Assembly (NCBI RefSeq): GCF_029278605.1
Contig: NZ_CP119572.1
Location: 372,001-436,000 of the forward strand
DNA length: 64,000 nucleotides
Reading direction: 5' to 3'
From: Cupriavidus sp. WKF15
GTDB lineage: Bacteria; Pseudomonadota; Gammaproteobacteria; Burkholderiales; Burkholderiaceae
In this document: positions 8,313 through 12,437 of the stretch, piece by piece
Layout: the number at the start of each line of letters is the position of its first letter
Numbering within the stretch: position 1 is the stretch's first letter
The notes under the pieces: model-generated
What the model saw: only the letters and a program-made list of their open reading frames with translations
The model's database searches: none
What the model was told of the DNA's origin: nothing
Program-made: the position numbers and the translations under genes

Positions 8313-9116
8313 TCAGGCCGCTTCCTGCAGGGCCGGGTTGCGCTGCTTGCGGTAGAGGAAATCCAGCACCGCCGTGCGGCAGGCGTGGTAGTCCTTGTCC
8401 TCGGCCAGCGCCACGCGGTCGCGCGGACGCGGCAGGCCGGCGCTGAGGATCTCGCCGATCGTGGCCGCCGGGCCATTGGTCATCATCACGATGCGATCGG
8501 CCAGCAGCACGGCCTCGTCCACGTCGTGCGTGACCATGACCACGGTGCTGCGGGTCTGCTCCACGATCTTCAGCAAGGCATCCTGCAGGTGCGCGCGCGT
8601 GAGCGCGTCGAGCGCGCCGAACGGCTCGTCCATCAGCAGCACCTTGGGCGCCATGGCCAGCGCGCGCGCAATGCCCACGCGCTGCTTCATGCCGCCCGAG
8701 ATCTCGTGCGGGAACTTGCCCTCCGCGTGGGTCAGGCCCACCAGCGCCAGCGTGTCGTGCGTACGCGCCTTGAGCTGCGCCTTGCTTTCGCTCGCGCCGA
8801 ACACGCGCTCCACGCCCAGATGGACATTGTCGAAGCAGGTCATCCACGGCAGCAGCGAGTGGTTCTGGAACACCACCGCGCGCTCCGGCCCGGGGCCGGC
8901 GATTTCTCTCCCTGCGCAGATCAGCGCACCGGTGGTCGGCGTGGCCAGGCCCGCGACCAGGTTCAGCAGCGTGGACTTGCCGCAGCCTGAATGGCCGATC
9001 AGCGTGATGAACTCCCCCTGCGCGATCTGCAGGTTGATGTCGCGCAGCGCCACGAACGGCCCCTTGCGCGTCCTGAAGGTCTGCCCGACGTTTTCGATGC
9101 TGACGAACTTTTCCAT
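8313..9116 (-). CDS. nrtD: Nitrate/sulfonate-type ABC transporter ATPase
   Basis: 267 residues, a single ABC domain: Walker A GHSGCGKST, Q-loop VVFQNHSLLPWM, signature EISGGMKQRVGIARAL, Walker B VLLMDEPFGALD and H-loop VMVTHDVDEAVLLAD. The EISGGMKQR signature and the long C-terminal DYHACRTAVLDFLYRKQ tail fit the NrtD/SsuB group. It couples ATP hydrolysis to import through the permease encoded just upstream. Nitrate is inferred from the binding protein and nasT context. Confidence 0.9.
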   Translation of the reverse strand: MEKFVSIENVGQTFRTRKGPFVALRDINLQIAQGEFITLIGHSGCGKSTLLNLVAGLATPTTGALICAGREIAGPGPERAVVFQNHSLLPWMTCFDNVHLGVERVFGASESKAQLKARTHDTLALVGLTHAEGKFPHEISGGMKQRVGIARALAMAPKVLLMDEPFGALDALTRAHLQDALLKIVEQTRSTVVMVTHDVDEAVLLADRIVMMTNGPAATIGEILSAGLPRPRDRVALAEDKDYHACRTAVLDFLYRKQRNPALQEAA

Positions 9117-9148: not shown

Positions 9149-10051
9149 TCAATGGTTGCCGTAGCTGAAGCGACGAGCCAGCGCAAGCAGCGCGTGCTCC
9201 AGCAGCAGGCCGATCACGCCGATCACGAAGATGGCGATGACGATGTGCTCGACCTTCAGGTTGTTCCACTCGTCCCACAGCCAGAAGCCGATGCCGGTAC
9301 CGCCGGTCAGCATCTCCGCGGCGACGATGACCAGCCACGCCGTGCCGATCGACAGCCGTACGCCGGTCAGCATGTACGGCAGCACGGCCGGGAACAGCAC
9401 GCGCGTGAACACCTTCCATTCGGACAGGTCCAGCACGCGCGCCACGTTCAGGTAGTCCTGCGGCACGCGCGTGACGCCCACGGCGGTGTTGATCACCATT
9501 GGCCAGATCGAGCAGATGAAGATGGCCCAGATCGCGGCCGGGTTGGCGGCCTTGAACAGCAGCAGCCCGATCGGCAGCCACGCCAGCGGCGACACCGGCC
9601 GCAGCAGGCTGATCACGGGCGATGCCATCGCGTTCAGGAAGGCGAAGCGCCCGAGGATGAAGCCGGCCGGAATACCAACCAGCGCCGCCAGCCCGAAGCC
9701 TGCAGCCACGCGCGCGAGCGATGCCAGCACGTTCCAGCCGATGCCCTGGTCATTGGGGCCGTTGCGGTAGAAGGGGTCGGTGAACAGCGGCACGGCGGCA
9801 TGCCACGTGGCGCCCGGCGTCGGCAGCGCCGGGATCAGCGTGGCGATACCGTGCCAGGACAGCACGAACAGTGCGAAGCCCATCAGCGGCGGCACACCTT
9901 TGAGCACGAAGGCGCGCAGCGCCTCGCGGCGTTCGGCGCGGCGTGCCTGGGCTTCGATTTCCCGCGCGCGGCGCCGCGCGCGTTCGCTGACATCAGGGTC
10001 GGCCTGCAAGCCGGTGGCGCCTTCCGGCGCGGATCTGGCGATGGCATTCAC
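9149..10051 (-). CDS. nrtB: Nitrate-type ABC transporter permease
   Basis: 300 residues with a charged, arginine-rich cytoplasmic N-terminus and about six membrane helices in a BPD_transp_1 domain; the EAA-like coupling loop appears as NVARVLDLSEWKVFTRVLFPAVLPY. A GTG start at 10049-10051 is chosen because AAGGAG lies 6 nt upstream; an upstream in-frame ATG would overlap the nrtA end. It lies 61 bp after nrtA in the operon nrtA-nrtB-nrtD. Confidence 0.9.
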   Translation of the reverse strand: MNAIARSAPEGATGLQADPDVSERARRRAREIEAQARRAERREALRAFVLKGVPPLMGFALFVLSWHGIATLIPALPTPGATWHAAVPLFTDPFYRNGPNDQGIGWNVLASLARVAAGFGLAALVGIPAGFILGRFAFLNAMASPVISLLRPVSPLAWLPIGLLLFKAANPAAIWAIFICSIWPMVINTAVGVTRVPQDYLNVARVLDLSEWKVFTRVLFPAVLPYMLTGVRLSIGTAWLVIVAAEMLTGGTGIGFWLWDEWNNLKVEHIVIAIFVIGVIGLLLEHALLALARRFSYGNH

Positions 10052-10112: not shown

Positions 10113-11426
10113 TCAGGCCTTGATCTTGAAGCCATCGGCGTAGGCTTTCGGATCCTTGGCGGCATCCCACACCACGCCGTCGATCAGTTTCGCGGTGCGG
10201 AAGTCGCTCTTGGGCAACGGCACCTGCGCCGCGGCGGCGGCCTGCTTGTAGACGTCGATGCGGTTGACCTGTTTCGCCACCGCGAGGTAGTCGGGGTGCG
10301 TCTTGAGCAGCCCCCAGCGCTTGTGCTGCGTCAGGAACCACATGCCATCCGACAGGAACGGGAAGTTGGCCGAGCCGTCCTGGTAGAACTTCATCGAGTC
10401 GGGGTCATCCCAGGTCTTCCCCAGGCCGTTGCTGTAGCGGCCGAGCATGCGGTCCAGGATGATGTCCATGTCGGTGTTGACATAGGACTTGGCGGCAATG
10501 GTCTCGGCGGTCTTGCGGCGGTTCGAAGCCGATGCGTCGATGAACTTGGAGGCGTCAAGGATCGCCGCCACCATCGCGCGCGCCGTGTTCGGGTACTTCT
10601 GCACGAATTCTGCGGTGGTGCCGAGCGTCTTCTCGGGGTGGTCCTTCCAGATCGCCTGCGTGGTTTCCACCGTGAAGCCGATCTTGTCGGCGATGGCGCG
10701 CGCACCCCACGGCTCGCCCACGCAGAAGCCGTCCATATTGCCCACGCGCATATTGGCCACCATCTGCGGCGGCGGCACGGTGATCGCCTTGGCGTCCTGC
10801 ATCGGATTGATGCCGTTGGCGGCCAGCCAGTAGTAGAGCCACATGGCATGCGTGCCGGTCGGGAAGGTCTGGGCGAAGGTGTAGTCGCGCTTTTCCTTGC
10901 TCATCAGCGCCTTCAGGCTGGCGCCGTCCTTCGCACCTTTCTCGGCCAGCTTGGACGACAGCGTGATGGCCTGCCCGTTGTGGTTCAGGTTCATCAGGAC
11001 CGCCATGTCCTTCTTCGGGCCGCCGATGCCGAGCTGCACGCCATAGATCAGACCGTACAGCACGTGGGCAGCGTCGAGTTCGCCATTGACCAGCTTGTCG
11101 CGTACGCCGGCCCAGGAAGCCTCCTTGGTCGGCGTGATCTTGATGCCGTACTTCTTGTCCAGCCCCAGCGTGGCAGCCATTACCACCGAAGCGCAATCGG
11201 TCAGCGGAATGAAGCCGATCCGTACCTCCGGCTTCTCGGGCGCGTCCGAGCCTGCCGCCCAGGCGCCGGAGCGCACCAGCGGATCGACCAGCGTCATCAC
11301 GCTGGCCCCGGCAATGGTGGCCAGTGCGCGGCGGCGTCCGCTGCTGGCTGGGGCCGTATCGGCGGTGGCGAGGTTGGCATCGACCGCAGCGGGCAGAGGC
11401 TTGGCGTTCCTGAGGCGAGAGGGCAT
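10113..11426 (-). CDS. nrtA: Nitrate-binding (NrtA/CmpA-type) substrate-binding protein
   Basis: 437 residues. The N-terminus carries a Tat-like signal (RRRALATIAGASVM, about residues 31-44), so it is exported folded. The mature part matches the NrtA/NasF family: RIGFIPLTDCASVVMA, LDAAHVLYGLIYGVQLGIGG, TFPTGTHAMWLYYWLAANG and FCVGEPWGARA. It should capture nitrate (nitrite and bicarbonate are alternatives in this family) in the periplasm. Signal peptide and operon position argue against it being the cytoplasmic sensor NasS. Expression is controlled by the structured leader upstream. Confidence 0.9.
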   Translation of the reverse strand: MPSRLRNAKPLPAAVDANLATADTAPASSGRRRALATIAGASVMTLVDPLVRSGAWAAGSDAPEKPEVRIGFIPLTDCASVVMAATLGLDKKYGIKITPTKEASWAGVRDKLVNGELDAAHVLYGLIYGVQLGIGGPKKDMAVLMNLNHNGQAITLSSKLAEKGAKDGASLKALMSKEKRDYTFAQTFPTGTHAMWLYYWLAANGINPMQDAKAITVPPPQMVANMRVGNMDGFCVGEPWGARAIADKIGFTVETTQAIWKDHPEKTLGTTAEFVQKYPNTARAMVAAILDASKFIDASASNRRKTAETIAAKSYVNTDMDIILDRMLGRYSNGLGKTWDDPDSMKFYQDGSANFPFLSDGMWFLTQHKRWGLLKTHPDYLAVAKQVNRIDVYKQAAAAAQVPLPKSDFRTAKLIDGVVWDAAKDPKAYADGFKIKA

Positions 11427-11440
11427 TGCTGGGCTCCAAG

Positions 11441-11503
11441 AAGAAAAGGCGTCCCGATCCGCAGCCCGCGTTCGCCAGAAGACGGGGTGCAGCTCAGGAC
11501 GCC
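11441..11503 (-). terminator. Attenuator/terminator in the nrtA leader
   Basis: On the minus strand a 7-bp outer stem GGCGTCC/GGACGCC (11497-11503 with 11448-11454), a 6x6 internal loop, and an inner 8-position helix with one mismatch form a long rod followed by TTTTCTTCTT, 14 nt before the nrtA ATG. Its place after two ANTAR hairpins marks it as the terminator that NasT would relieve. Confidence 0.85.
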
Positions 11504-11521
11504 GTTGTCCGGGGCGTAGCG

Positions 11522-11574
11522 CGGCCCGCGTTGGCCGTGCCCGCCTGAATTGTGATCGGCCCTCGTTGGCCGAT
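11522..11574 (-). promoter_or_regulatory. Dual-hexaloop ANTAR target RNA (NasT antitermination element)
   Basis: Two hairpins on the minus strand. The first (11574-11555) has a perfect 7-bp stem ATCGGCC/GGCCGAT and loop AACGAG; the second (11537-11522) a 5-bp stem CGGCC/GGCCG and loop AACGCG. Both loops are six nucleotides with A at position 1 and G at position 4, the known recognition pattern for ANTAR proteins. They are 17 nt apart, as in other ANTAR targets, and precede the terminator. The ANTAR protein NasT is encoded next door. Confidence 0.93.
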
Positions 11575-11584
11575 GTGCGAATAA

Positions 11585-11600
11585 CGCAATCGCTATGCCA
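11585..11600 (-). promoter_or_regulatory. Sigma-54 promoter for nrtABD
   Basis: Minus strand reads TGGCATAGCGATTGCG, with invariant GG and GC separated by exactly 10 bp (consensus TGGCACG-N4-TTGC). With C at -12 (11586), the start site falls at about 11574, the first base of the first ANTAR hairpin. This agreement between two independent predictions raises confidence. Confidence 0.75.
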
Positions 11601-11743
11601 GGCGCTTGCGAGGCCTGGAAAGTCCGCCCAGCGGCCGAATCCGCGAATAAAAGTGGGGTTTGGGACGAGTCATGCCCCGCCGGCCACGCAAGCCGGGCCG
11701 GGCGGGAGCGCCATGGTTGAGGACCGGCGCCAGTTTTGTGCAT

Positions 11744-11760
11744 TGCACCAGCCGCGTGCC
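11744..11760. promoter_or_regulatory. Putative NtrC enhancer site upstream of nrtA
   Basis: TGCACC-AGCCG-CGTGCC on the + strand matches the NtrC pattern TGCACC-N5-GGTGCA: one perfect half and one with two changes, with core GCAC-N7-GTGC (minus strand). It is centred about 178 bp upstream of the predicted sigma-54 start, a normal enhancer distance. Confidence 0.55.
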
Positions 11761-11783: not shown

Positions 11784-12437
11784 TCAGCCCATCACGTCGA
11801 TCACGCGCTGGGCTGCGTCCACGAGCTTCAGTCCACGTTCCATGGCCATGCTGCGCAGGCGCTTGTAGGCTTCGTCCTCGCTGATGCCGCGCGCCTGCAT
11901 CAGCAGCCCCTTGGCGCGTTCGACCACCTTGCGCTCGACGAGCTTGAGGCGCGTGGCGTCGAGCTCGGCGCGCAACTGCTGGTCGAGCTCGAAGCGGGCG
12001 TAGGCAACGTCCAGCACGGTCTTGACACGTTCGGCGCGCAGGCCATCGACGATATAGGCCGTGATGCCGGCCGACAGCGCGGCCTTGATGCGCTGCGCGT
12101 CGTCGTTGTCGGTGAACAGCACGATCGGGCGCGGCGCGTGCTGCGTGGACACGCACACGTGCTCCACGGTGTCGCGCGCGGCGGACTCGGAAGCGATGAT
12201 GATCAGGTCCGGCTGGCTCGCCGCGATGACGTCGGGCAGGCGCAGGTCGGCATCCACGGTCTGGATGTCGGTGAAGCCGGTGCTGATCAGCCCGCCGCGG
12301 ATGGTCTCGACGTTGAGCGGGTCGGCATCATGCGGATCGCGCACCAGCAGGATGCGCAGCGTGCGGGTGCCCGCTGCGGAGCCCCGCGGGGGCTGGCTGG
12401 ACTGGCTTGGCGAGGGGGGCGGATGGCGGCGAGTCAT
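11784..12437 (-). CDS. nasT: NasT-type ANTAR antiterminator response regulator
   Basis: 217 residues: a receiver-like domain (about 22-140) followed by a coiled linker and the C-terminal ANTAR RNA-binding domain ([30 protein letters not shown]). The receiver position expected to carry the phospho-acceptor Asp reads [11 protein letters not shown], so the acceptor seems lost, as fits control by a partner rather than by phosphorylation. It should bind the hexaloop hairpins of the nrtA leader and block termination. The usual partner NasS is not adjacent. The start at 12437 removes an unconserved upstream extension. Confidence 0.9.

Follow-up and report, generated by a model that had tools for sequence, protein, structure and literature searches.

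On the minus strand of the window (the whole stretch of 64,000 nucleotides of Cupriavidus sp. WKF15 that was analysed), the nasT gene (11784..12434) is followed, in this order, by two NtrC-like dyads, a σ54-type promoter element, three hairpins called here H1, H2 and H3, an intrinsic terminator and the nrtABC genes. nrtA (10113..11426) encodes a nitrate-binding protein of the NrtA/NasS family (match to the NrtA structure, PDB entry 2g29, E 4.6e-81), the N-terminus of which bears, as judged by eye, a Tat-like signal (SGRRRALATIAGASVMTL...AWAAG). nrtB (9149..10051) and nrtC (8313..9113) encode the permease and the ATPase of a nitrate ABC transporter (TIGR01183 and TIGR01184, respectively, both above cut-off). 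NasT-type antiterminators combine a receiver-like domain lacking the phosphorylated aspartate with an ANTAR domain, and the 216-residue product of nasT has this make-up. A Pfam search returns its ANTAR domain (PF03861, E 3.9e-19), as expected from the sequence-only reading, which had placed a nasT ANTAR gene next to the leader; the same search gives no match for the receiver domain. In the PDB, NasT matches EutV (6wsh, E 7e-16) and NasR (4akk, E 3.7e-7). The alignment with EutV spans both the receiver and the ANTAR domains, and by eye an alanine of NasT stands at the aspartate of the EutV LMDIQMP motif. This is the only ANTAR protein encoded in the genome, and its gene adjoins the leader.

Between nasT and the leader, a best-site scan with what we take to be the NtrC consensus places two dyads on the minus strand, GGCACGCGGCTGGTGCA (11744..11760) and TGCACAAAACTGGCGCC (11726..11742), 18 bp apart. 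Over 53 leaders of the genus the mean best score is 10.7 out of 14, compared with 8.5 in shuffled sequences; the two best sites are 18 bp apart in 29 of these 53 leaders, at a varying distance from the promoter. The promoter element itself, TGGCATAGCGATTGC (11586..11600, minus strand), matches the σ54 −24/−12 consensus as we assume it to be. The corresponding motif [TC]GGCA-N6-TTGC lies upstream in all 53 genus leaders having H3; its invariance in the leader alignment is due to the selection of the leaders by that very match. The predicted first base of the transcript would be the first base of H1. The functional region thus reaches upstream of the span considered initially (11427..11574), to the promoter at 11600-11586. 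Simple scans for promoters (a σ70 rule) and terminators (hairpin loops of 3-8 only) found none.

The three hairpins of the leader each display a hexaloop with an adenine at position 1 and a guanine at position 4 (A1/G4). H1 (AUCGGCC-AACGAG-GGCCGAU, 11555..11574, minus strand) is the putative P1-like recruitment hairpin, H2 (CGGCC-AACGCG-GGCCG, 11522..11537, minus strand) is extended by an outer stem (11545-11513), and H3 (GGAC-AACGGC-GUCC, 11497..11510, minus strand) corresponds to P2, the likely antiterminator. The gaps between core stems are 17 nt (H1-H2), 11 nt (H2-H3) and 44 nt (H1-H3). The terminator (11438..11503, minus strand) pairs 11503-11494 with 11457-11448, with an additional inner stem, and ends in a T-rich tail (TTTTCTTCTT, 11447-11438), followed by the nrtA ATG at 11426. 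CTGGCGAA is found in its inner loop (11460-11490) in 36 of the 53 leaders of the genus.

The sequence-only reading had correctly located the AACGAG and AACGCG hairpins (11574-11555 and 11537-11522), 17 nt apart, and the long terminator hairpin with its T-run just before nrtA. It described them as a complete two-hexaloop switch, however, and so overlooked H3, which was revealed by sub-threshold alignments to the narK RNA and P11 families, whose GAC-A..G..-GUC box sits there. The 5′ arm of the terminator is the 3′ half of H3, with GGCGUCC common to both, whereas H1 and H2 neither overlap the terminator nor share any sequence with it. Since H3 overlaps the terminator, it would be the hairpin that a bound protein has to hold, i.e. 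the antiterminator. The proposal that NasT blocks termination through the hairpins consequently keeps the logic of the family on its side, but with H3, not H1 or H2, as the competing hairpin. The search pattern proposed from the two upstream loops (GGCCAACGNGGGCC) has two exact matches in the window and three with at most one mismatch (0.45 expected; one of 100 shuffles had at least three); it is nevertheless too narrow for the genus, because at position 6 the H1 loop has G in only 7 of 52 leaders and C in 42 of 52.

The 154-nt leader folds more stably than all of 200 dinucleotide shuffles (z −3.5). The 358-nt stretch up to nasT is less striking (z −2.2, with four of 100 shuffles equally stable). 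The minimum free energy, reached by the terminated fold, is −74.7 kcal/mol, compared with −64.9 kcal/mol when H3 is enforced. When prefixes of growing length are folded, H3 is part of the best fold at 78-90 and again at 114-120 nt, is outcompeted by other pairings at 96-108 nt and is absent from 126 nt on, being displaced once the 3′ arm of the terminator has been synthesized.

We compared this leader with its counterparts in the genus, bearing in mind that the counts come from related species and are not independent. Among 60 sampled Cupriavidus genomes, 57 have an nrtA orthologue (G004 and G011 gave no match and G057 one of only 25%), and 56 leaders were compared, that of G048 being left out. 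H3 is kept in 53 of the 56; in the other three (L051, L052 and L053) the leader is lost or decayed. Of the 53 leaders having H3, 52 show by script an H1 hairpin of at least 4 bp with an A1/G4 hexaloop, H1 being masked by a mismatch in the 53rd (L026), and all 52 loops chosen by stem read AACG. An H2 hairpin with an A1/G4 hexaloop and at least 3 bp is present in 47 of the 53; three leaders (L018, L034 and L047) have A1/G4 with an uninterrupted stem of only 2 bp beside the loop, and three (L030, L048 and L061) lack A1/G4 in H2 while keeping H1 and H3. Of 50 H2 loops selected by their stems only, 47 have A1 and 48 have G4, positions 5 and 6 being free. As to the spacings, the distance from the promoter to the H1 loop is 33 nt in 44 of 52 leaders (32-36 nt elsewhere) and the loop-to-loop distance between H2 and H3 is 24-27 nt in 47 leaders, compared with 33-70 nt between H1 and H2 (a value of 27 nt was discounted, as it stems from the wrongly placed H1 of L026). 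H1 is thus locked to the promoter and H2 to H3, and drift is confined to the spacer between H1 and H2.

Covariation was assessed on 52 aligned leaders (L014 was dropped, having no T-run by script, and L061 entered shortened). Changes on both sides are seen in 7 of 16 pairs, compared with 3.7 in shuffles, and in 3 of the 5 pairs of H2; the covariation score is 0.141, compared with at most 0.069 for slid structures, and the terminator stem also shows covariation. One of the five measures, further pair types, did not rise above shuffles (101 of 500 as high). H3 is invariant, as expected if it serves two folds, and so has no covariation support of its own. The expectation that related genomes would preserve the hairpin pairs and loop positions A1 and G4 is therefore borne out across the genus.

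A second leader of the same type lies in the same genome upstream of narK-nirB (G000:C2:228143-228245) and matches RF03032 (E 1.2e-4, 35.8 bits) under the gathering threshold. It has a σ54-type promoter, H1, an identical H3 box and a terminator, but its middle hairpin lacks an A1/G4 hexaloop. Among the 30 narK leaders compared of the 57 found in the genus, none has a middle A1/G4 hexaloop, compared with 47 of 53 nrtA leaders, and none of seven narK leaders from other genera has one; in letter-shuffled spacers such a hexaloop occurs at the H2 register in 1.3% of cases. The H1 stem is free of mismatches over at least 4 bp in 10 of the 30 genus narK leaders, the other 20 showing by eye 3 bp followed by a mismatch. 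Conservation of A1 and G4 in H2, with positions 5 and 6 free, is the mark that ANTAR recognition leaves; we therefore favour H2 as a putative third NasT site over a role as a spacer.

Genome-wide searches were also made. A model of H2-H3 (R1) built from 40 of the 53 leaders (nine duplicates and L014, L030, L048 and L061 being excluded) retrieves the nrtA leader at E 9e-15 and the narK leader at E 0.096, with others at E 0.005-0.02. The H3 box alone is uninformative without its partner hairpins (56 matches, compared with 64 for the reversed control). RF03032 has 12 matches at E ≤10, including both leaders; at this threshold it also matches in 13 of 14 control genomes. Five of the matches (C2:2269053, C2:1800935, C1:3200643, C2:1621175 and C2:2323684) have no σ54-type element and were judged to be due to chance; A1/G4 hexaloops number two, separated by 78 nt, in C1:3200643 and at most one in each of the other four.

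Beyond the genus, NasT is matched (E ≤1e-20) in 170 of 249 genomes of the family, and 38 loci of relatives were examined for leaders. The 13 loci of a group that clusters with Ralstonia in the nrtA tree (g24) have a nasT-nrtA leader, with two compact hexaloops 22 nt apart in 12 of them. Three other loci (L104, L107 and L108) have H1 and H3; in L105 (g17), H1 and H2 keep A1/G4 and, by eye, the H3/P2 loop reads GACGGC and has lost A1; no leader was seen at the loci of L106 and L109. In L106, from the same genus as L105, the NrtA homologue has no signal visible by eye. We then classified by rule the best 80 of at least 585 named betaproteobacterial nrtA loci (a stricter terminator rule, since replaced, had left 39 of the 80 unclassified). 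Among these best 80, 12 have three hexaloops, 13 have H1 and P2, 10 have the compact pair, 14 have the middle hairpin and P2 with a long 5′ part, and 13 have P2 with other elements; six have the promoter without P2 and 12 have no promoter. The three-hexaloop class comprises two Cupriavidus loci and others that include Rhodoferax, Paracidovorax and Acidovorax (L219 being placed there by a weak H1), and such leaders recur in Comamonadaceae. Of 31 hand-picked Comamonadaceae-like loci with a promoter, 23 show a hairpin with a hexaloop where H1 would be, with A1/G4 in 13 of the 23 and without it in 10. The hairpin that carries the upstream hexaloop thus differs with lineage: it is the first, the second, or each of the two. 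Neither H1 nor H2 is universally required, as H2 lacks A1/G4 in 3 of 53 genus leaders and some Comamonadaceae have an H1 without A1.

In four Cupriavidus genomes (G036, G008, G057 and G004) NasT has no match and a NIT-ANTAR (NasR-like) protein is present instead (genes at L253 1634-2959, L254 2352-3836, L255 1744-3072 and L256 1584-3050), which looks like an exchange of regulator with the leader type retained; the survey of ANTAR proteins covered 11 of the 60 genomes. G008 has an additional AmiR-like protein (AmiR_N and ANTAR; L257 1792-2499). The nrtA leaders of G036 and G008 have lost the H2 hexaloop, so that loss of this loop is found in 2 of 2 leaders with a NasR-like regulator, compared with 1 of 51 (Fisher p 0.002). 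This is no proof of a link: the tree joins the two genomes as sisters (support moderate, 86/90), and a single event may account for both losses.

Our search for the transporter showed that NrtB (E ≤1e-60) is missing in 8 of the 60 genomes (G004, G011, G015, G019, G031, G033, G047 and G057). G004 and G057 have neither an nrtA orthologue nor a NasT match, and have the NIT-ANTAR regulator. G011, which has no nrtA match, is a genome only 54% complete. In G047 the nrtA match (G047:C369:101893-103122) stops at residue 408, through an insertion, a break or an assembly fault. In the remaining four, G015, G019, G031 and G033, the genes follow one another as nasT-nrtA-ybiB without intervening nrtB or nrtC, the absence of nrtC referring to these loci (L243, L244, L245 and L249), and NrtA is 78-83% identical. 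All three hexaloops are kept in G015 (L050), the position of which in the tree is unsettled. G019, G031 and G033 form one clade, in which the nasT-nrtA leader is lost or decayed and the narK leaders keep H3, with a mismatched CCAACG hairpin by eye. In three of the nasT-nrtA-ybiB genomes (L051-L053) the Tat-like signal looks decayed by eye.

What the analysis shows directly is that there are three hairpins, that they are conserved at set distances and that H3 overlaps the terminator; binding of NasT, an order of binding and control by nitrogen and nitrate are inferred. We consider it probable that the nrtA leader is a NasT-controlled antitermination leader with three ANTAR-type hexaloops. The assignment to the ANTAR target family, with antitermination by NasT in response to nitrate, had been made from the first reading and is well supported, the sole ANTAR protein of the genome adjoining the leader and a second leader lying at narK-nirB. 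Under nitrogen limitation the polymerase would start at the σ54/NtrC-type promoter and transcribe H1 first; H1 and then H2 would serve as recruitment hairpins for NasT. With NasT on the RNA as H3 emerges, H3 would be held and the 5′ arm of the terminator occupied, allowing read-through into nrtABC. Without NasT, the terminator, about 10 kcal/mol more stable, would replace H3 and transcription would stop just before the start codon.

We may wonder whether all three hexaloops take part. A switch made of H1 and H3, with H2 as a spacer hairpin that brings H1 near H3 and carries A1/G4 by coincidence, would resemble the narK-nirB leader, with its non-hexaloop middle hairpin between H1 and H3, and would suit the three nrtA leaders that dropped A1/G4 in H2 yet retain H1 and H3. 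It leaves unexplained why A1 and G4 of H2 persist while other positions vary, why the middle hexaloop is frequent in nrtA leaders and absent from narK leaders, and why the H2-H3 register is fixed, and we regard it as improbable. Still harder to credit is a switch made of H2 and H3 in canonical register, with H1 as a hairpin that stabilizes the 5′ end or as a DNA operator at the start of the transcript. The H2-H3 spacing is indeed near that of the compact two-hexaloop leaders, H1 begins at the predicted start of the transcript, and the Comamonadaceae-like loci include 5′ hairpins kept without A1/G4; against it stand the invariance of AACG in the H1 loops of the genus and the narK leaders, in which, at a nearly equal distance from the promoter, no upstream A1/G4 hexaloop exists besides H1. 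The three-hexaloop reading is the one that we retain.

As to the signal, passages of PMC3795266 describe, for the systems studied there, that NasS restrains NasT until nitrate arrives. The expectation that NasT would act when nitrate is present thus presupposes a NasS. Searches of the genome with NrtA (E ≤1e-3) and with a profile of nine NasS proteins brought up no separate one, NrtA being the only full match to the profile (next, partial matches at E 7.7e-6 and 0.006); a separate cytoplasmic NasS without signal peptide is thus not seen here. In all of 18 sampled loci with a NasT 37-43% identical, an NrtA homologue follows nasT directly, and the 12 N-termini inspected show by eye no Tat-like signal, as expected of nasS. 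As no separate NasS was found, the likely candidate for a nitrate sensor restraining NasT is NrtA, a NasS homologue encoded downstream, and from these comparisons we give even chances to the idea that it doubles in this role. With its Tat-like signal, NrtA could sense nitrate in the cytoplasm only from a pool awaiting export. Tat substrates fold before export, which makes such a cytoplasmic pool plausible. That NasT acts without any NasS-type sensor, either constitutively or in response to some other signal sensed by its receiver-like domain, would agree with the lack of a separate NasS among our matches and with the Tat-like signal of NrtA, and c-di-GMP is said to bind NasT in Pseudomonas putida (in passages of a 2026 review, PMC12830290). 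We find this rather unlikely: 4 of 60 genomes have lost the transporter yet retain nrtA next to nasT, which argues that NrtA serves NasT, and the two genomes with NIT-ANTAR and neither NasT nor nrtB (G004 and G057) have no nrtA orthologue.

In a tree of NrtA and NasS rooted on a single long-branch paralogue, and sampled without alpha- or gammaproteobacterial NasS, the branches of betaproteobacterial NrtA enclose the cytoplasmic NasS of the sampled Burkholderiaceae. We tentatively suggest, as something short of an even bet, a closed circuit in which NrtA, waiting folded in the cytoplasm, restrains NasT, and NasT activates nrtABC through a leader in which two recruitment hexaloops in series, the first of them at the extreme 5′ end of the RNA, precede one antiterminator hexaloop. 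If this is true, the sensor would be made behind its own switch, with uptake, sensing and feedback in one protein, and the extra hexaloop would tune the nrtA leader apart from the two-hexaloop narK-nirB leader under the same NasT. The nasT-nrtA pattern also makes it possible to test how the binding protein of a transporter turns into the sensor of an antitermination system, or already is one.

The leader shares with the dual-hexaloop ANTAR RNAs (eut of EutV, Klebsiella nasF and Pseudomonas amiE) the A1/G4 hexaloops, the overlap of P2 with the terminator and an ANTAR protein. Hairpins with A1/G4 hexaloops, of which at least two define such targets, number three in the window and are conserved in the genus, the first locked to the promoter and the second to P2, in contrast to the pair of the known RNAs. 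In the model set out in parts of PMC3369931, PMC3369936 and PMC8934654, P2 shares sequence with the terminator and the two are mutually exclusive; H3 shows this overlap, which marks the attenuator subclass in the passages concerned of PMC3369931, and the text of that paper mentions hits in Burkholderia. A passage of PMC8164766 gives 2-25 nt for the linker between stems, a range that includes H1-H2 (17) and H2-H3 (11) but not H1-H3 (44). A weak Rfam match to the Burkholderia sRNA ncS035 was set aside: ncS35 lies between terpene cyclase and hypothetical genes, and the words 'nitrate' and 'ANTAR' are absent from the main text of PMC5760752.

Against two Rfam families, the leader scores 18.2 bits for the narK RNA (RF03032, gathering 43.2) and 16.9 bits for P11 (RF00625, gathering 70), far below both thresholds. 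The P2 box of both aligned consensuses (window 11599-11448) is the same as that of the nrtA leader, which differs in having an additional hexaloop. RF03032 also starts with a σ54-like GGCAC-N5-UUGC and has a CCAACG loop; its consensus shows two A1/G4 hexaloops by eye. From this likeness, the narK RNA and P11 look like NasT-type leaders, and a strict search of the open-licence literature found no paper linking the narK RNA to ANTAR. In the same literature, without supplements, no paper on three-hairpin ANTAR or NasT leaders was recognizable by title or abstract.

With the NasS-NasT leaders (Paracoccus denitrificans nasA, Bradyrhizobium nosR and Pseudomonas nirBD) the system has in common a NasT-type regulator, nitrate genes and hairpins in a leader ahead of the structural genes; NtrC or σ54 input is reported for some of them in passages of PMC5424462 and PMC12830290. 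It differs in having, behind its own leader, a Tat-signalled NrtA where the sampled related genera have nasS. The way in which a single ANTAR dimer engages two hairpins is still debated; a crystal-structure paper (PMC8934654) argues that a dimer can hold no more than one hexaloop at once, P1 being the recruiter. Lineages that differ in which of the two upstream hairpins bears a hexaloop, or in whether both do, with P2 well conserved, offer ready tests of this model. The NasT/ANTAR antitermination leader is a known type; what is new here is the presence of three hexaloops instead of the usual two.
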